Below are positions 558 to 34,370 of a DNA stretch of 35,524 nt, piece by piece (position 1 is the first letter of the stretch; the number at the start of each line of letters is the position of its first letter). Both the position numbers and the translations under genes were made by a program. The notes under the pieces were generated by a model. That model searched no databases. It was not told the origin of the DNA and saw only the letters and a list, made by a program, of their open reading frames with translations. Origin of the DNA: Gemmatimonadaceae bacterium (GTDB lineage Bacteria > Gemmatimonadota > Gemmatimonadetes > Gemmatimonadales > Gemmatimonadaceae); contig JACCWE010000081.1 in the NCBI GenBank assembly GCA_013697785.1, positions 1 to 35,524 of the forward strand. Reading direction: 5' to 3'.

Positions 558-3500
558 CTAAACCCTGTAAAACACCAACCCCCCAGTCGCCCTCCGCCAC
601 CCACCATCCATAATGGCCTCGACGTGGGTGCTCGCCCCCGCAGCCTCGCCATTCACGGTATCGATGTGCGGATCGCGCGCCGCGCGTGCGCCCGCGGGAG
701 TCCCTCGGCTCAGATATTCGCCGAGCAGCTTCGCGGCCTCCGTGACATCGGCATCGGATGCATCGCCCGCGATCGAGATGCGCTTTCCGCGCGACTCCGC
801 GTTCATGATCACATCGCCGCGACGCGTGAGCAGCAGCGCACCGGCGCCGCGCGGTCGCACGAGCGATCCCTTTGCGATCGACTCGAGCGCGAGCGTATAC
901 GGATTCGCGGGATCGGCCGCCGCCATCACGATCATCGGCGCCTCCGCATCGAGATCCGGCTGCGCGCGAAGCCGCTCCACCGCTTCCGGCAGCGCAAATT
1001 GCGCACCCCCCAACCCCTCCACGAAATATCCGCGTCGCACCTCGCCGCGATACTCGAGGCGCTTGAGCTCACGGTAGATCGCGCGCCACGACACCGGCGG
1101 GCGCTCGCGCCGCCACCAGTCGCGCGTGACGATCGCATAGCGGTCGAGCCACTGCCGCGCGATCTGCTCCGCGTGCTCCTCCTCATCTGGACGCACGCCC
1201 CACGTTCCCGGCGTGCGCAGCAGCGACCATCGGCCCACCCACGCCGCCTGCGGTCCCGGGAGATCCGGCCGGCGCCACTTCGGCAGCCTCCGCTGGCTCG
1301 GCGGCCGCGAATACACCGGGCGTCCCGGCGACGCCTCGAAGCTCGCGGGAAGCCAGCGCGTCGGATCCTGCGCCGAGTGCGCGCCGACGCCGCGCGAGCG
1401 CCCAGGCACCGATCGCGTGCGCACGATCTCGCGCAGCGCCTCGACGGTGTCGTTGGTCGCGAGCGACGCCGCCGACAGCTCGCGCAGCGCATCGCGCACC
1501 GAGAGCGATGAGAATTCCGTCGCCGCCTGAATGTCCGCGATGAACGATGCGCCGTACTTCTCGAGCGCGTCGCGCACCGCGATCGCGTTCGGCGTCAGCG
1601 GCGACTCATCTTCGGCGTCGAGCCAGATCGCGCCTTCGCCGCGCGGAAAGAAGCGCACGCTCGAGAGCGTCGGCACCGACGTCGGATCGGGCTTGCTCCC
1701 GCCCGCCCACACGATCGAGCCACCGGTCGCGATCTGGGCGAGCCACGCGGGCTCGTAGCGGTCCATCCGCGCGGGGATGATATCGCGCTCCCATGCGGCA
1801 GGCGCGCGCGGAAGGCCCGTCATCTGCGCGAGGATCGCGCTCACGCCGCTTGCGCCGTCGAGGTGCTCGCGCGGATCGAGATGCTGCCAGCGTTGGAGAA
1901 ATGCGGCGAAGGTCGCGAGATCGACCGCCTGGATCTGTTTGCGCAGCGCGGCGAGCGCACGATTGCGCGCGAGCTCGACCACGCGCCGCGTCGCCCACTC
2001 CGGCTCCTCGAGCTCGCGGCGGAATTTCCCGCGCACGAGCTTCCCGTTCTCCTCCCATTCATCGATGCGCTTCCCGATCCACGCCGCATCCCACCCGTAT
2101 CGCGCCTCGACCTCGCGCACCGTCACCGGTCCCGCGAGCGCCAGCCATCGCGCGAGAATCTCGCGCCGCGCCACCTTTGGCTCGAGCACGACGTTCCGCA
2201 TCGCGACCGGAATCACATCCTCGGCATCGCGCTCCACCATCGTCGCGCCAGCTCGCACGCGCGCAATGATCTCCGGCGCACGCGCGGCCGCGTAGCGCCC
2301 GATCGACTCCGTCAGCACCACGCGCCACTCGATTCTCGCATCGCCCGCGTTCGCGAGCCCGAACGGAATCGCGAGCGCGCGCCTCGCATCGAACAACTCC
2401 GCCACGGGATCGCTCGCGCCGAGCCATCCATTCGCGTCCGCCACGCGCGCGCGCAGCTCCTCCACGCTCAGATCGCCGGCGCGATCGAGCAGCACCGCCA
2501 GCTCATCCGCCGTGCGCGCTCTCCTTCCCTCCGCTGTTCCGCGTCGCTCCGCCAGCAGCTGCTCGATCGCCTCGAGCGTCCCCTCGTCCGCGCCCTCCGT
2601 CCCCATCACCTCGTCGAGCAGCCCGCGATCGATCGACAACAGCGCCGCCTGTCGCTCCGCCCTCGGCGTGTCGTCGCCATAGAGCCAATCCATCACGAAG
2701 CCGAACTGCAAGCTCGCCGCGAATGGCGACGCGCGATCCGTCTCAACACTTCGAATTGCGATGCGGCCTGCCGAAATAGAATCGAGCACGTCCCGAAGCG
2801 CGGCCATGTCGAACGCGTCCTGCAACACCTCGCGATACGTCTCGACCAGAATCGGGAAGCTCGGAAAGCGCCGCACCGCATCGAGCAGGTCCAGCGCCTT
2901 GAGCCGCTGCAGCCACAGCGGCATCCGCCGCTTCGGAGACCCGCGCGGGAGCAGCAGTGCGCGCGCTGCGTTCATCCGGAAGCGCGCGCCGAACAACGAC
3001 GTGCTCCCGACCTCATCCATCACGCGCGTCTCCGCCTCTTCGGCCGAGAGATGCATGAGCGCGGACAGCGGCGCCGCTCCACCGAGATTCGGCAGCCGCA
3101 GCATGATACCGTCGTCAGTCGTCTGCACCTGCACCTCCATTCCCGGGAGCGCCTCGCGCACGCGCTGCGCGAGCGCCATCCCCCACGGCGCATTCACGCG
3201 TCCACCGAACACCGAGTGCAGGATGATGCGAAGCGCACCCATCTCGTCGCGAAACTGTTCGATGACGAGAGTGCGGTCGTCGGGCACCACCCCGGTCGAA
3301 GCCCGCTGCTCGGCGATGTACGAGCGCAGGGACTGCGCGCACGCGGCATCGACACCGTACCGCGCCTCGAGTCCGGCGTTCACCGAATCGTCATCGATAT
3401 CCACCGCCGAGAGCTGTCGCCGCAGCTCGCCCACGCGATGACTCAGCGGCACGCTCCGCGTCGAGAACTCTCCGTGCCAGAAAGGCATCCGCGCCGGCGC

Positions 3501-5210
3501 ACCCGGCGCCGGCGACACGATGACGCGATCGTGCTCGATCGAGCCTATCCGCCAGGTCGCGGAGCCGAGCTGAAAGACATCGCCCACGCGCGACTCGTGC
3601 ACGAACTCCTCATCGAGCTCGCCCAGTCGCGTGCGATCGGCGAGGTTCACGGTGTAGAGCCCGCGATCGGGAATCGTCCCGCCCGAGATCACCGCCATCA
3701 TCCGCGATGCGCGCGTCCCCGCCAGCCGGTCGTTCACGCGATCCCACGTCATCCGGGGCTCGAGCTCCGCCGAGAGCTCCGACGAATACTTTCCCGAGAG
3801 CATCGAGAGCACCTCGTCGAACACGGTGCGCGTGAGACGGTGATACGGATACGCGCGCCGGATGAGCGCGAACGCGTCGCCCGCGGTCCAGTCGTCGACG
3901 CTCACCATCGCGACGATGCTCTGCGCGAGCACATCGAGCGAATTCTGAATCGCGCGAGTCGGCTCGACGTCGCCTGCGCGCATCGCTTCCACGATTGCCG
4001 CGCTCTCGACGAGATCATCGCGAAACGTCGGAATCAAAACACCCTTGCTCACCGCGCCGAGGTTGTGCCCCGCGCGCCCCACTCGCTGCAGCCCCGCACT
4101 CACGCGCTTGGGACTCTGCAGCTGGATCACGAGATCCACCGATCCGATGTCGATCCCCAGCTCCAGCGAGCTCGTAGAGATCAGCGCCGGCAGCTCGCCG
4201 GCCTTCAAGGCCCGCTCGAGCTCGAACCTCCGCTCGCGCGCCAGCGATCCGTGATAGGGACGAGCGATCTGCTCCTCCGCCAGCGCATTCACCCGCGCCG
4301 CGATTCGCTCCGCCTGCGCGCGGTTGTTCACGAACACCAAAGTCGTTTTCGACTGCCGGATGTATTTGAGCACGAGCTCCGCCACCGCGGGCCACACGCT
4401 TCCGCCCACCTCGCCGAGGTCCGGCACCGGCGACACCACGCTCAGCTCCATCGCTTTCACGAGCCCGCAGTCCACGATCGTCACCGGCCGAAACTCCGCC
4501 GCCGCGCTCCCCGGCTCGCTCCCGCTAACCGCCTTCATCCCGCCGAGAAAGTGCGCCACCTCCTCGAGCGGCCGCTGCGTCGCCGAGAGTCCGATGCGCT
4601 GCACGGGCGTCTCCACCAGCATCTCGAGCCGTTCCAGCGTCAGCGCGAGATGCGCCCCGCGCTTCGTCCCCGCAACCGCATGGATCTCGTCGAGGATCAC
4701 CGCCCGCGCCGTGCCGAACATCCCGCGCCCCTTGAGGCTCGTCAGCAGAATGTTCAGCGACTCCGGCGTCGTAATCAGAATGTGCGGCGACTTCCGGAGC
4801 ATTCGCGCGCGCGCCGACGCCGGCGTGTCCCCCGTCCGCACGCCGATCCGTATCTCCGGAAACTCCTTCCCTGCCGCCTCGAAGCGAGCGCGCAGCTCAG
4901 CGAGCGGCTGCTCGAGATTCCGCTGCACGTCGTTGCCGAGCGCCTTGAGCGGCGAGATATAGAGAATCTGCACCGCGTTCGGCAGCGGCGACTCGAGCCC
5001 GCGCACGATGAGCTGGTTGAGCTCCCACATGAACGCCGCGAGTGTCTTTCCCGTCCCCGTTGGCGCGAGAATCAGTGCATGCTCGCCACTCGCAATCGCC
5101 GGCCACCCAAGCCGCTGCGGCTCACTCGGCGCCCCGAACCGCTCGGCGAACCACGCGCGAACGATCGGATGGAACGAGACGAGCGGACCTTTTGATGAGC
5201 GGCGCGGCAT
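558..5210 (-). CDS. lhr: Lhr-type ATP-dependent DNA helicase (large helicase-related protein)
   Basis: A 1550-residue superfamily 2 helicase, close to the length of E. coli Lhr (about 1540). Visible motifs are a Q-motif-like segment PQRLGWPAI, Walker A APTGTGKT (residues 49-56, Lys55), TTPESL (148-153), the DEIH box (174-177) and SAT (209-211). The second RecA domain contains STSSLELGIDIG and QRVGRAGH. The long C-terminal half follows the Lhr pattern of a winged-helix/beta-barrel core plus Lhr-specific extension. Lhr proteins are 3'-to-5' translocases linked to DNA repair (for example mitomycin C tolerance in mycobacteria). The gene starts 26 bases after the PLD-like gene and may be cotranscribed with it. 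ATG at 5210 is chosen because it lies just before the Q motif; no convincing ribosome site is visible. Confidence 0.95.
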   Translation of the reverse strand: MPRRSSKGPLVSFHPIVRAWFAERFGAPSEPQRLGWPAIASGEHALILAPTGTGKTLAAFMWELNQLIVRGLESPLPNAVQILYISPLKALGNDVQRNLEQPLAELRARFEAAGKEFPEIRIGVRTGDTPASARARMLRKSPHILITTPESLNILLTSLKGRGMFGTARAVILDEIHAVAGTKRGAHLALTLERLEMLVETPVQRIGLSATQRPLEEVAHFLGGMKAVSGSEPGSAAAEFRPVTIVDCGLVKAMELSVVSPVPDLGEVGGSVWPAVAELVLKYIRQSKTTLVFVNNRAQAERIAARVNALAEEQIARPYHGSLARERRFELERALKAGELPALISTSSLELGIDIGSVDLVIQLQSPKRVSAGLQRVGRAGHNLGAVSKGVLIPTFRDDLVESAAIVEAMRAGDVEPTRAIQNSLDVLAQSIVAMVSVDDWTAGDAFALIRRAYPYHRLTRTVFDEVLSMLSGKYSSELSAELEPRMTWDRVNDRLAGTRASRMMAVISGGTIPDRGLYTVNLADRTRLGELDEEFVHESRVGDVFQLGSATWRIGSIEHDRVIVSPAPGAPARMPFWHGEFSTRSVPLSHRVGELRRQLSAVDIDDDSVNAGLEARYGVDAACAQSLRSYIAEQRASTGVVPDDRTLVIEQFRDEMGALRIILHSVFGGRVNAPWGMALAQRVREALPGMEVQVQTTDDGIMLRLPNLGGAAPLSALMHLSAEEAETRVMDEVGSTSLFGARFRMNAARALLLPRGSPKRRMPLWLQRLKALDLLDAVRRFPSFPILVETYREVLQDAFDMAALRDVLDSISAGRIAIRSVETDRASPFAASLQFGFVMDWLYGDDTPRAERQAALLSIDRGLLDEVMGTEGADEGTLEAIEQLLAERRGTAEGRRARTADELAVLLDRAGDLSVEELRARVADANGWLGASDPVAELFDARRALAIPFGLANAGDARIEWRVVLTESIGRYAAARAPEIIARVRAGATMVERDAEDVIPVAMRNVVLEPKVARREILARWLALAGPVTVREVEARYGWDAAWIGKRIDEWEENGKLVRGKFRRELEEPEWATRRVVELARNRALAALRKQIQAVDLATFAAFLQRWQHLDPREHLDGASGVSAILAQMTGLPRAPAAWERDIIPARMDRYEPAWLAQIATGGSIVWAGGSKPDPTSVPTLSSVRFFPRGEGAIWLDAEDESPLTPNAIAVRDALEKYGASFIADIQAATEFSSLSVRDALRELSAASLATNDTVEALREIVRTRSVPGRSRGVGAHSAQDPTRWLPASFEASPGRPVYSRPPSQRRLPKWRRPDLPGPQAAWVGRWSLLRTPGTWGVRPDEEEHAEQIARQWLDRYAIVTRDWWRRERPPVSWRAIYRELKRLEYRGEVRRGYFVEGLGGAQFALPEAVERLRAQPDLDAEAPMIVMAAADPANPYTLALESIAKGSLVRPRGAGALLLTRRGDVIMNAESRGKRISIAGDASDADVTEAAKLLGEYLSRGTPAGARAARDPHIDTVNGEAAGASTHVEAIMDGGWRRATGGLVFYRV

Positions 5211-15865: not shown

Positions 15866-18754
15866 ATGGCCGAACGCGCAAAGCCGGCAGTACGCCAGAA
15901 GCTCTCCGAGTACCGCCACAAGCGCGACTTCTCGAAGACCGCCGAGCCATCCGGCGACGAGGAGCGCGCCAACAAGAAAAAGAAGGCGCTCGTCTTCGTC
16001 ATCCAGAAGCACGCGGCGAGCCACCTCCACTTCGACTTCCGCCTCGAGCTCGATGGCGTGATGAAGAGTTGGGCGGTGCCCAAGGGCCCGAGCTACGATC
16101 CCGCCGTCAAGCGCCTCGCGATGCAGGTCGAGGATCATCCGATCGACTACAACACCTTCGAAGGGACGATCCCGCAGGGCGAGTATGGAGGTGGCACGGT
16201 CATGCTCTGGGACCGAGGCACCTACACCTCCGCGCTCGACGAGAACGACCCGATCCCCGCACTCCACAAAGGGTACGCGAAGGGCGATCTCAAGATCCTC
16301 ATGCACGGCGAGCGCATGCACGGCTCGTGGGTGCTCGTCCGCACGCGCCGCGGCTCCGACGAGAAGCCGCAGTGGCTCCTCATCAAGCATCGCGATGAAT
16401 TCTCCGAGCCCGGCTCCGACATCGTCGCCGATGAGATGACGTCGGTCGTCTCGGGACGCACGATGGACGAGATCGCGGCGAACAAAAAGAAGAAAGTGTG
16501 GCACTCCAACCGCGCGCCGAAATCCGCGCCGCCTGCCGAGGCGCCAACGCCGAAGCGAGCGGCGCCCGCGCGCAAAGTCGCCACACCCTCCGCCGCATCC
16601 CGCGCCGCCTCCGCCAAAGCACTCGGCGCCGGCGCCCTCGATCCCATGCTCGCCTCCGTTGGCACCGACATCCCGGACGGCAGCGACTGGACCTTCGAGC
16701 CGAAATACGACGGCATTCGCGTGCTCGCCTACGCCACGCCCGATGCGGCGCGGCTCGTCACGCGCAACGGGAAGGACAAGACCGCGCAATTCCCCGGCAT
16801 CGCCGAGGCGGTGCGCAAGGTGGCCTCACGCGGCCGCCGCGCGATCGTGCTCGACGGAGAGGTCGTCGCCCTTCACGACGGCGCCCCCGCGCGCTTCCAG
16901 GAACTGCAGCAGCGCATGCACGTGAAAGACGCGCGCGCGATTGCAGGCTACGAGACGAGCGCGCCCGTCGCGCTCATGGCCTTCGACATCCTCCTCGACG
17001 GCGACTCGGTCCTCGTCCACGAGCCGTGGACGAAGCGGCGCGCACATCTCGAGAAGCGTCTCGCGAAGCACGCGTCGAAAGAGCTGCGCCTCACGGAGTC
17101 GGACATCGACGACGGACGCGAGATGCTCGCGCGCGCGCGCGCCGACGGCTGGGAAGGGATCATCGCCAAGCGCGTCGATGCGCCGTATCAACCCGGCGCT
17201 CGCTCGCGCGACTGGCTCAAGCTCAAGCTCGAATTTCGGCAGGAGTTCGTCGTCGGCGGCTGGACGGAGCCGCGCAACACGCGCCAGCACATCGGCGCAC
17301 TGCTCCTGGGCTACTACGACCACGGTCGCCTGATCTACGCCGGCAACATGGGGGGCGGCTTCGACAATGCGGGGCTCGCGGAGATGTACGACGCGCTCGC
17401 GCCGTCCGAACGAAAGTCCTCGCCCTTCGAAGAGACGCCCCGCCCGCGCGAGCCGGTGCACTGGGTGACGCCGAAGGTCGTCGTCGAGGTGAAGTTCAAC
17501 GAGTGGACGACGGACGGTAAGCTGCGCCAGCCGATCTACGTCGGCACGCGCGACGACAAGGATCCGCGCACGGTGAAACGCGAGGGGGCGAGCGTGCAGA
17601 AAGCTGCGAAGAAAAAAGCGGCGCCGAAAAAAGCGGCGAGGAAAAAGGCGGCGAAGAAAGTCGTGCGCGGGGCTACGCGAAAGAGCGTCGGCGCGTCGGC
17701 GAAGAAGAGCGCGCCGGTGAAGAAGGCATCAGTCGCGAAGAAATCCGCGGCGAAAAAGTCGAAGAAAGCCGCGGCTCGCATCCCGACGTCCTCCGCCCCC
17801 GCCGGATCCGTCGAGCAGCAGCTCGTCGCGATACAAACCGACTCTGGCGATGGTGAGCTCGAGATCAAGCGTGGCGTCTCGCTTCACGTCTCGAGCCTCG
17901 ACAAGGTCTACTTCCCGGGCGATGGCTTCACGAAGGGCGACATCATGCGCTACTACGCGCGCGTCGCCCCGCAGATCCTGCCGACGATCGCCGATCGCCC
18001 TCTCGTCCTCAAGCGCACCCCCGAGGGGATCACGGGCGAAGTCTTCTTTCAGCAGAAGCCGCCGCAGCACGTGCCACCGGTCATTCGCGTCGAGACCGTC
18101 GTCAACGACGACGGTGAGAGTGCGGAGCGAATCGTCGGCGGCGATCTCGCGACGCTGCTCTACACGTCGCAAATCGGCTGCGTCTCCGTCGACCCATGGC
18201 ACTCGCGCGTCGGATCGCTCGACGCGATGGACTACACGATTCTCGATCTCGACCCAGGCCCGCGCGCGACCTTCGAGCGCGTCGTCGAGGTCGCGCAGTG
18301 GGTGAAGGCCGAGCTCGATGCGCACGGGCTCAAGGCCGCACTCAAGACCTCGGGCTCGCGCGGGCTGCACATCGCCATCCCCCTCCCCGCTCGCACTCCC
18401 TACGAAGCCGGGCTGCTGCTCGCTCAACTGATCGCGACGCGCGTCGCGGAAGAACATCCGAAGGACGCGACGGTCGAGCGCTCCGTGAAGGCCCGACCGC
18501 CGGCGGCGATCTACGTCGACTACCTGCAGAACGTGAAGGGAAAATCGGTCGCCGGCGCATACTGCATTCGCGCACGCGACGGCGCGACGGTTTCGACCCC
18601 CCTCCAGTGGAAAGAGTTGAATGCGTCACTGGACCCGCACGAGCACACCATCGAGACGGTCCCCGCGAGAATCGTAAAGCTAGGCGACATATGGAGTTCC
18701 GCACTCAAAACGAGGAATACGGCCGCCGCCGTTCGAGCCGCGGCTGACCGATAG
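15866..18754 (+). CDS. ligD: Multifunctional DNA ligase LigD (PE-LIG-POL order)
   Basis: A 962-residue end-joining enzyme. The N-terminal 3'-phosphoesterase domain (about 40-190) shows QKHAASHLHFDFRLELDG with predicted active residues His49, His55, Asp57, Arg59 and His91. The ATP-dependent ligase domain (about 260-570) carries the adenylated lysine in EPKYDGIR (Lys280) and later ligase motifs such as EGIIAKR and WLKLK. The C-terminal primase/polymerase domain (about 665-955) carries Asp794 and Asp796 in LDLDP and SGSRGLHI. The order matches Pseudomonas LigD, not mycobacterial LigD (POL-PE-LIG). Between ligase and polymerase lies a roughly 60-residue Lys/Ala-rich linker (about 572-640) with many KKAA and AKKS units. 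Together with Ku it processes and seals double-strand breaks. Confidence 0.97.
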   Translation: MAERAKPAVRQKLSEYRHKRDFSKTAEPSGDEERANKKKKALVFVIQKHAASHLHFDFRLELDGVMKSWAVPKGPSYDPAVKRLAMQVEDHPIDYNTFEGTIPQGEYGGGTVMLWDRGTYTSALDENDPIPALHKGYAKGDLKILMHGERMHGSWVLVRTRRGSDEKPQWLLIKHRDEFSEPGSDIVADEMTSVVSGRTMDEIAANKKKKVWHSNRAPKSAPPAEAPTPKRAAPARKVATPSAASRAASAKALGAGALDPMLASVGTDIPDGSDWTFEPKYDGIRVLAYATPDAARLVTRNGKDKTAQFPGIAEAVRKVASRGRRAIVLDGEVVALHDGAPARFQELQQRMHVKDARAIAGYETSAPVALMAFDILLDGDSVLVHEPWTKRRAHLEKRLAKHASKELRLTESDIDDGREMLARARADGWEGIIAKRVDAPYQPGARSRDWLKLKLEFRQEFVVGGWTEPRNTRQHIGALLLGYYDHGRLIYAGNMGGGFDNAGLAEMYDALAPSERKSSPFEETPRPREPVHWVTPKVVVEVKFNEWTTDGKLRQPIYVGTRDDKDPRTVKREGASVQKAAKKKAAPKKAARKKAAKKVVRGATRKSVGASAKKSAPVKKASVAKKSAAKKSKKAAARIPTSSAPAGSVEQQLVAIQTDSGDGELEIKRGVSLHVSSLDKVYFPGDGFTKGDIMRYYARVAPQILPTIADRPLVLKRTPEGITGEVFFQQKPPQHVPPVIRVETVVNDDGESAERIVGGDLATLLYTSQIGCVSVDPWHSRVGSLDAMDYTILDLDPGPRATFERVVEVAQWVKAELDAHGLKAALKTSGSRGLHIAIPLPARTPYEAGLLLAQLIATRVAEEHPKDATVERSVKARPPAAIYVDYLQNVKGKSVAGAYCIRARDGATVSTPLQWKELNASLDPHEHTIETVPARIVKLGDIWSSALKTRNTAAAVRAAADR

Positions 18755-32146: not shown

Positions 32147-32881
32147 TCAGGCCTCGCGCCTGATCTCGGGCGACGAGATCGCACCCTGGTCGAAATTGCC
32201 GAGCGATGTGCGAGCGGCAGGAGCGAGACGCGCGACGAGTTTGTCGAGATCCGAGATATACAGTCCACCGCCCTCGCGCCGCACGAGCCCCTCTGCGCAC
32301 AATCGACCCAGCACCAGCGAGATCGATTCGCGCGTCGCGCCAACGAGCTCGCCGAGCAGTCGCCGCGATACGGGCGGAGCGGCCGCGGCCGCTCGCCGGT
32401 CGTGGCTCTGCGCGAGGCGCACGAGCGACGCAATCAGCCGCTGTTCCACCGTCAGCATCGCATGCTGACCGAACTTCACCAGCAGCGCCGTTCGCTCGGC
32501 CATGATCTGCCGCAAAAGGATCAGTGCGGTGGCTGGTTGCTCGCGAAGCATGGAGCTGAAGCGCGCTGAGCTGAGGTGCAGCGTCTCGCTCTCTTCCTCG
32601 GCGCGGGCCTGGCTCGCATAAACAGCTGATCCCTCGAGCCCCTCGCCACCGAACGTCTCGCCACAGGTCGCCACCCATGGAACGAAGCTCCGACCGGCGC
32701 CCACCTGATTGCGCAGCACAACCTGCCCCCGAAGCACCAAAAAGATCCCGTCAGCGGCCGTTCCCTGCTCGTAGATCGTGAATCCAGAGGGCCAAGACGT
32801 CTGGGCGCCGTATGCGGCAATATGATCCCGTTGCTCGCGAGGCACCCGTGTTATTTCTTTCATGAGGACGGTCGATGCCAT
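32147..32881 (-). CDS. Crp/Fnr-family transcriptional regulator
   Basis: A 244-residue protein from ATG 32881. The N-terminal cyclic-nucleotide-binding-type beta roll shows FTIYEQGTAADGIFLVLRGQVVL and GETFGGEG, the latter replacing the phosphate-binding cassette. The C-terminal HTH shows SRRLLGELVGATRESISLVLGRL, matching the Crp/Fnr recognition helix. No cysteine cluster typical of Fnr is present at the N-terminus of the chosen start, so direct oxygen sensing by Fe-S is unlikely; a CooA/DNR- or cAMP-like ligand is possible. ATG 32863 is an alternative start. It is divergent from the [FeFe]-hydrogenase-like gene, with about 70 bases between starts. Confidence 0.9.
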   Translation of the reverse strand: MASTVLMKEITRVPREQRDHIAAYGAQTSWPSGFTIYEQGTAADGIFLVLRGQVVLRNQVGAGRSFVPWVATCGETFGGEGLEGSAVYASQARAEEESETLHLSSARFSSMLREQPATALILLRQIMAERTALLVKFGQHAMLTVEQRLIASLVRLAQSHDRRAAAAAPPVSRRLLGELVGATRESISLVLGRLCAEGLVRREGGGLYISDLDKLVARLAPAARTSLGNFDQGAISSPEIRREA

Positions 32882-32951
32882 GGGACACCCGATTTGCTGA
32901 ACAAGGCACGTCGGCAACCATGCCGCATGTCATAGCGTAGTCAAGCAATGT

Positions 32952-34370
32952 ATGGGCCGTAAAGTGAGCGGGCACAGCGGCTTCCCAACTCGTGATGTCC
33001 ACCCAATGTCGAGCACCTCGCGCGCGATGGCGGAAGACGGGACGCCGTTTATCATCCTCGGCGCCGACGCCGTGTTGGCAGCTCTGCCGGCCTCGCCGGT
33101 CCAGCTCGCGCACGCATGCCACCTGCTCGGTTTCCAGCTGGCCGCCCCTGCCACCTGGGGCGACGAGCTCATCGCTGAGAGCTGTCTTGATCAGCTCGCT
33201 GACTACGAGCATCAGGCGGCAGTGATGTGTAGCTGTCCCCTCGTCACCGAACGGCTGACGCGTGCCAGCATGATGCTCGAGCCGTTCATGCTCACCTTCG
33301 TTTCGCCGCCCGTAGCGACCGCGCGCTACATCCGCGCGGCTTTCAGCGGCCAAGCGCTGCACATCACGTATGCCGGCGCGTGCCCCGGCGCCGCAGACGA
33401 CTCGATCGACGCGCGCATCACGCCCGCCGAGCTTCTCGAGGCGTTCGCCGAGCGCGCAATCGTCCTCGGCGCACAGCCCAATCACTTCGACGCCCTCGTC
33501 CCGCTCGATCGGCGGCGCTTCTACTCACTCCCCGGCGGCGTTCCCACGCGCGACCACGTCGAGCGCGCCGCCGGACGCTCGTTCATCGAGGTTACAGGTG
33601 ACGATGTCGTGCTCGAGCTCACGCAGCAACTCATCGAGCAGACGCCGGCGCTCCTCGACATCGCGGTACCGCTCGGCTGCGCCTGCGCCGGCGCCGGCGA
33701 GCACGCCATGCGCGGAAATGTGCGCGCCGGGCTGCTGACCCTCGAGCCGCCACGCGCACGAACGCATGTAATCGACCAGTCGCTGCACCTCGACGTGACG
33801 CAGTCGCTGGTCGAGCTGTGCGAGCTCCACATGGGCAGCGTCGACAGCGCCGAGGAGCCGGCAGCGCTCGAGGTGCATCTCGCGGCGGATTCTGCGCCTG
33901 CACCGGAAGAACCGATGATCGAGATCGATGTCACGGGTGTCGACGTCATCGATGTCGCGAGCATGGATGTCGCGAGCATAGACGCGAAGCCCATCGAGAT
34001 CGAGATCGAGCTGCCCCCGGAGATCGCGTCCACGAATCACGCCGTGATTCCCGCTCCGCGCAAACGCCCCGTCGTCTCGCGCGCGCCCGCATCGATCCCG
34101 CGTTACGCGAATGCGCGCGGCGAGTTGGTCCCTCGCGCATCGCTCGCCGTGCTGCGCCGAGCACTGGCGCGCATCGCGAAGCGGAAGGCGCGGAGGCAGC
34201 CGAAGGTCGAGCGCGGACGTCGCGAGCGCGCGATGGAGATTCACGATGGACTCGTGCGCACGACGCCGCGCACTCCACGCTCGCTCGCGATCGCGGGCAG
34301 CGCCGATCTTCCGCGCCCGGTGCCGCCGCCCCCCGCGCGCCATCGCCCGCGCACGATGATGGAGCTGTAG
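32952..34370 (+). CDS. Putative [FeFe]-hydrogenase large-subunit-like (H-cluster-domain) protein, degenerate
   Basis: A 472-residue protein. Residues about 33-260 follow, in order, the landmarks of the [FeFe]-hydrogenase C-terminal domain: SPVQLAHACHLLGFQ, WGDELIAES, CSCPLV (Cys93, Cys95; canonical T-S-C-C-P), TFVSPPVATARYIR, ITYAGACPGAADD (Cys144; canonical G-P-C-x-A-K-K-x-E), ITPAELLEAFAERAI, RRRFYSLPGG, FIEVTGDDVVLELTQQL and GCACAGAG (Cys243, Cys245; canonical C-x-x-x-C-x-G-G). The co-linear match is what identifies it; L2 lysine and part of L3 are lost. No N-terminal ferredoxin domain is present. Residues 320-355 are an acidic/hydrophobic stretch with repeated D-V/I units, followed by a basic tail. 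Nar1/sensor-type function is more likely than H2 turnover. Divergent from a Crp/Fnr regulator. Start at 33006 is also possible. Confidence 0.6.
   Translation: MGRKVSGHSGFPTRDVHPMSSTSRAMAEDGTPFIILGADAVLAALPASPVQLAHACHLLGFQLAAPATWGDELIAESCLDQLADYEHQAAVMCSCPLVTERLTRASMMLEPFMLTFVSPPVATARYIRAAFSGQALHITYAGACPGAADDSIDARITPAELLEAFAERAIVLGAQPNHFDALVPLDRRRFYSLPGGVPTRDHVERAAGRSFIEVTGDDVVLELTQQLIEQTPALLDIAVPLGCACAGAGEHAMRGNVRAGLLTLEPPRARTHVIDQSLHLDVTQSLVELCELHMGSVDSAEEPAALEVHLAADSAPAPEEPMIEIDVTGVDVIDVASMDVASIDAKPIEIEIELPPEIASTNHAVIPAPRKRPVVSRAPASIPRYANARGELVPRASLAVLRRALARIAKRKARRQPKVERGRRERAMEIHDGLVRTTPRTPRSLAIAGSADLPRPVPPPPARHRPRTMMEL

Follow-up and report, generated by a model that had tools for sequence, protein, structure and literature searches.

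H-domains of [FeFe]-hydrogenases contain a cubane together with a diiron site, the latter made by HydE, HydF and HydG, and in the sensory HydS proteins the H-domain is paired with FeS and signalling parts. A Cx2Cx4Cx16C FeS motif has been described for HydS groups C and D (PMC8163306); the route by which sensory HydS proteins signal is unproven (PMC13104023). Fusions of PF02906 to other signalling outputs are already known, for example in sigma-54 activators of Clostridiales (PMC6615313), and the fold also occurs in Nar1, which has lost the H-cluster, retains eight cysteines and an N-terminal cluster region, and has a role in Fe-S assembly (PMC12991071). Neither an H-domain of the kind that we report here nor the clade to which it belongs is described in the literature searched, which did not extend to most subscription journals.

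The stretch of DNA that we analysed (35,524 nucleotides, hereafter the window) is one complete contig of a Gemmatimonadota genome (G000:C76; 3.8 Mb). Besides the gene discussed below, we observed in it a LigD-type DNA ligase that combines phosphoesterase, ligase and polymerase domains (15866-18754) and, on the minus strand, a large Lhr-type helicase of ~1550 aa (558-5207). The original prediction had placed near the end of the window a degenerate H-domain without a ferredoxin module, and we assign the following features to this gene, numbering its cysteines in the 472-aa reading:

32952-34370, plus strand: open reading frame as first called, intact, 472-aa reading
33006..34370, plus strand: hydrogenase-like protein in its likeliest reading, from the ATG at M19 of that frame, 454 aa
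33036..33776, plus strand: divergent [FeFe]-hydrogenase H-domain, residues 29-275 (PF02906, profile, AlphaFold, Foldseek)
33228..33236, plus strand: motif L1, C93-S-C95 before P96 (CSCPL), with C95 as the ligand-position cysteine
33381..33383, plus strand: cysteine C144 of motif L2 (GACPG), K-K-x-E lost
33678..33686, plus strand: motif L3, C243-A-C245 (GCACAG), C-x-C replacing C-x-x-x-C
33777..34367, plus strand: low-complexity tail, rich in P/A and charge (hydropathy scan; no membrane helix in the window's genus at this locus)

Against PF02906 (Fe_hyd_lg_C) the window protein alone scores 19 bits (E 0.0012), matches just the first two thirds of the model and stays below the curated cut-off of 22.1, although same-clade relatives attain as much as 34.7 bits and several exceed the cut-off. 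Relatives in the sister family reach 78 bits. A search of the PDB with the window protein as a single sequence gave no match, and a profile built from 39 relatives matched [FeFe]-hydrogenases only. The AlphaFold model obtained on this 39-sequence alignment is confident (pLDDT 93.2, pTM 0.91), and Foldseek found 35 matches for it in the PDB at E<=0.001, all of them [FeFe]-hydrogenases, with a best E of 2.3e-7 and TM-scores of 0.61-0.71 by query length. The model of a sister domain (A2) was weak (pLDDT 76) and was left out of our conclusions. That the protein has the H-domain fold, as first proposed, is well supported. Relatives occur in 34 of 60 related genomes by sequence search and in 115 of 395 genomes across the phylum by profile search; a genome-contig scan with the window protein returned one near relative only, the sole outside match being a Gemmatimonadetes MAG.

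To compare the cysteines we used an alignment of 113 relatives, which we sorted under family-level codes of our own (f1, f2, f7, f9 and f11); f1, the window's family, contributes 35 of them, and f2 is its sister. The motifs CSCPL, GACPG and GCACAG, the three of the nine predicted landmarks that we checked individually, lie where they had been predicted, and both of the alterations attributed to them are seen in the alignment: L2 reads CPGAADDS and does not match C-x-x-K-K-x-E, and the C-x-C of L3 does not match the C-x-x-x-C spacing of canonical H-cluster ligands. Cys95, Cys144, Cys243 and Cys245 are each invariant in the f1 sequences (35/35) and align with ancestral Fe-S ligand positions, in agreement with the idea that cysteines were retained where cluster ligands had been. 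In the model, the ligand-position cysteines (model residues 67, 116, 215 and 217) fall, by the DSSP string, in a loop or at a helix start after a core strand. Such a placement would be consistent with one pocket common to all four, for which the confident model and the hydrogenase-only fold matches give no more than indirect support. C93 is kept in 32 of the 35 members of the C-x-C clade, a signature that forms a single clade with an SH-aLRT of 99 in a tree of relatives that includes long branches. The domain is under purifying selection, with dN of 0.07-0.15 vs dS of 0.78-0.96 among four congeners, most of whose differences sit at codon position 3. The single-domain span first given to the protein has to be shortened, as its last ~195 residues are the low-complexity tail and lie outside the fold. 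Across f1, 21 of 35 sequences have a membrane helix, placed at most ~18 residues from the C-terminus in 15 of those, and 11 of 35, none of them from the window's genus, share a 'PRAYVARR'-like motif in the tail.

The relatives differ widely in architecture. Family f11, a distant and deep branch, has canonical motifs (TCP- or SCP-type, PCIAKK with its C-I-A-K-K kept, and LCCNGC-type); one of its proteins combines ferredoxin, H-domain, FeS part and histidine kinase, and is encoded next to a canonical hydrogenase scoring 316 bits against PF02906. The f2 proteins are built as ferredoxin (Fer4), H-domain, FeS (PF04060, a C-x2-C-x4-C-x16-C) and GGDEF, and their motifs come in two forms, either STCP / GVCL / CEGC or STDP without the cysteine pair of the third motif. 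At the f2 loci, including L021:1174-2979, the cysteine set is gone in roughly half, and the remaining architecture is intact in L022 and L029. All motif cysteines are missing from f7 and f9. The f1 proteins have lost the Fer4, FeS and output (GGDEF or kinase) modules and gained low-complexity tails; consistent with the predicted absence of a ferredoxin module, a domain search of the window protein found no Fer4, FeS, PAS or GGDEF domain. Over the whole alignment all four cysteines are present in 64 of 113 relatives, and none of the 113 has the L1 cysteine without the L3 pair or the reverse; the other 49 lack both, 7 of these retaining the L2 cysteine. Since two separate losses of the set suffice on the tree, this joint behaviour is only suggestive and statistically not strong. 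Because the domain persists without cysteines in part of f2 and in f7 and f9, the fold must have some role that does not depend on a cluster. The f2 proteins may be read, from their sequences, as carrying an H-domain-derived input to c-di-GMP signalling.

The expected lack of maturases is borne out for HydF and HydG across the window's genome, where we found no HydG and, for HydF, only unrelated GTPases below the cut-off. HydG was present in both f11 genomes tested and in none of 15 genomes of f1, f2, f7 and f9. An oxygen-using organism had been suggested as well, and the genome has two genes for haem-copper oxidase subunit I, a subunit encoded in 16 of the 17 genomes checked. That the window protein performs no H2 chemistry is well supported.

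Upstream of the gene, two further features bear on its start and on its possible regulation:

32147..32881, minus strand: CRP-family regulator, divergent from the hydrogenase-like gene (PF00027 and PF13545; synteny; alignment)
32945..32959, plus strand: conserved intergenic DNA motif of 15 bases, GCAATGTATGGGCCG, likely an operator or promoter element of the divergent CRP-like gene

The gene order alpha/beta hydrolase, homoserine kinase or ThiF-like, CRP-like, hydrogenase-like, M28 peptidase or MarC, and Smr-like is kept, and the CRP-like gene diverges from the hydrogenase-like gene in 12 of the neighbourhoods analysed. In several genomes this locus is present but lacks the hydrogenase-like gene, and several others have the latter without a CRP-like neighbour. 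The exact intergenic motif occurs only once in its own genome. It was found at all 13 loci with a CRP-like neighbour (at least 13 of 16 positions) and was weaker at all 15 without one; the scoring consensus was drawn from the same loci, which makes the within-set scores partly circular and leaves the low scores at the 15 other loci unaffected. In several genera of the window's family the motif GCAATGTNYGGGCCG (15 bases) lies upstream of the CRP-like gene, often followed by TTGACA. We discarded the view that the motif is specific to the hydrogenase-like gene, since three of seven genomes without that gene still carry the motif 5' of their CRP-like gene (13-14 of 16 positions). For this reason we assign it to the CRP-like gene, of which it is probably the promoter or operator, and make no claim about regulation of the hydrogenase-like gene. 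The conserved motif overlaps the start first proposed, 32952, and relatives show no conservation of the 18 residues that precede M19, so 33006 is the likelier start on sequence grounds and 32952 probably lies upstream of the gene.

A paralogue is encoded elsewhere in the same genome (L033:4652-6655, contig C48 of G000); it has a membrane helix in its interior and ends in a long tail. It lies directly downstream of SCO1 and CtaG, both of oxidase assembly, with a CRP-like gene further upstream. More generally, the copper-related genes SCO1, CtaG and a sulfocyanin-like gene adjoin paralogues.

The repurposed hydrogenase fold of the original prediction is supported by profile, model and fold matches alike. 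As to its present use, we favour, with middling confidence, a stand-alone H-domain, reduced from sensory HydS-like proteins, whose simple Fe-S cluster would let it report redox or oxygen state. Such a protein, descended from the sensory [FeFe]-hydrogenase type, would be unable to build the H-cluster and would instead bind one ordinary Fe-S cluster, [4Fe-4S] being favoured, through Cys95, Cys144 and Cys243-x-Cys245 in the old H-cluster pocket. A change in the redox state of this cluster, or loss of the cluster when O2 or NO is present, would alter the shape of the domain, and the flexible tail, membrane-anchored in many relatives, would pass this change on to a partner. With the maturases missing, the pocket should accept nothing but an ordinary Fe-S cluster or some other metal, and because the hydrogen-handling parts are lost yet the four cysteines never vary, a plain iron-sulfur cluster serving a sensor or a scaffold is probable. 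Judged by its residues, the protein quite likely binds such a cluster; for a sensing role we consider the case evenly balanced. Readout of the cluster by a partner is favoured because the four ligand-position cysteines are invariant under purifying selection in an aerobic organism. Also on the side of sensing are the sister proteins, which are signalling proteins, the loss or retention of cysteines as a set, the divergent CRP-like gene, and the paralogue with SCO1, CtaG and a CRP-like gene nearby. Against it stand the non-canonical L3 spacing, the mere two loss events, the persistence of cysteine-free domains, the loss of the GGDEF or kinase output, and the fact that the gene and its CRP-like neighbour are not always together. 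On a wider scale, we put forward more tentatively that in one bacterial clade the H-domain may have become a redox sensor of aerobes, holding an Fe-S cluster but no H-cluster, with a novel C-x-C arrangement of ligands and in many cases a membrane anchor in its tail. The sister families would represent stages of this change, first complete sensors with the cysteines and later ones without them.

The same cysteines could also serve an Fe-S carrier or scaffold which, like a bacterial Nar1/IOP1, hands a transient cluster to clients and senses nothing. Four conserved ligands and a long flexible tail are compatible with this, the paralogue adjoins oxidase assembly factors, and Nar1 itself is a hydrogenase fold that acts in Fe-S assembly without an H-cluster (PMC12991071). 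Nevertheless, the window protein lacks the eight cysteines and the N-terminal cluster region of Nar1, its nearest relatives are signalling proteins rather than assembly factors, and no Fe-S assembly genes were seen in the conserved neighbourhood, which leaves the carrier unlikely. We regard as likewise unlikely a structural, zinc or copper site, in which the four cysteines would bind a metal other than Fe-S or form a disulfide and the domain would be a protein-interaction module. A C-x-C together with two lone cysteines would be able to bind Zn or Cu, paralogues have copper-related genes as neighbours, and related domains persist without cysteines, but the cysteines occupy by alignment the ancestral positions of Fe-S ligands. 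A cryptic but genuine H2-responsive sensor with an H-cluster would agree with descent from a HydS-type fold, and is very improbable given a genome that is aerobic and has neither HydF nor HydG, together with the lost L2 lysines and the altered L3 spacing. Finally, a pseudogene or decaying remnant, to which the loss of modules and motif parts relative to the sisters might point, is scarcely credible for a widespread gene of the family with an intact ORF and cysteines invariant in 35/35, and is contradicted by dN far below dS in the four congeners.

If our preferred reading of a reduced H-domain with an ordinary cluster is true, it provides a bacterial counterpart of the Nar1 story, in which aerobes gave the hydrogenase fold a different use, and a natural series for the conversion of a hydrogen enzyme into a sensor. 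The series within Gemmatimonadota runs from a canonical sensor with HydG, through ferredoxin-H-domain-GGDEF proteins with or without the cysteine set, to the stand-alone C-x-C domain, and makes it possible to test where in the fold signalling resides and what served hydrogen chemistry alone. Moreover, such proteins could be mislabelled as hydrogenases and inflate the H2 metabolism predicted from environmental metagenomes. Repurposing of the fold is itself already known; what is new here is a repurposed hydrogenase fold with a bacterial evolutionary series showing how it came about.

Compared with known systems, the window protein is homologous to PF02906 by profile and by fold, even though its own score is below the curated cut-off. 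It has the H-domain fold in common with HydS groups C (TmHydS) and D (TamHydS), whose N-terminal two-cluster ferredoxin, C-terminal Cx2Cx4Cx16C FeS region and signalling output are in turn common to the sister family f2. HydS proteins carry the H-cluster, whereas the window protein has lost K-K-x-E and all accessory domains, reads C-x-C at L3 and comes from a genome without HydF and HydG. The eukaryotic Nar1/IOP1/NARF proteins are likewise a repurposed hydrogenase fold without an H-cluster in an aerobic setting. Nar1 has eight cysteines, whereas in the window's clade only C95, C144, C243 and C245 are invariant, and C93 nearly so; unlike Nar1, this clade has no known assembly partner, is bacterial and has signalling proteins as its relatives.
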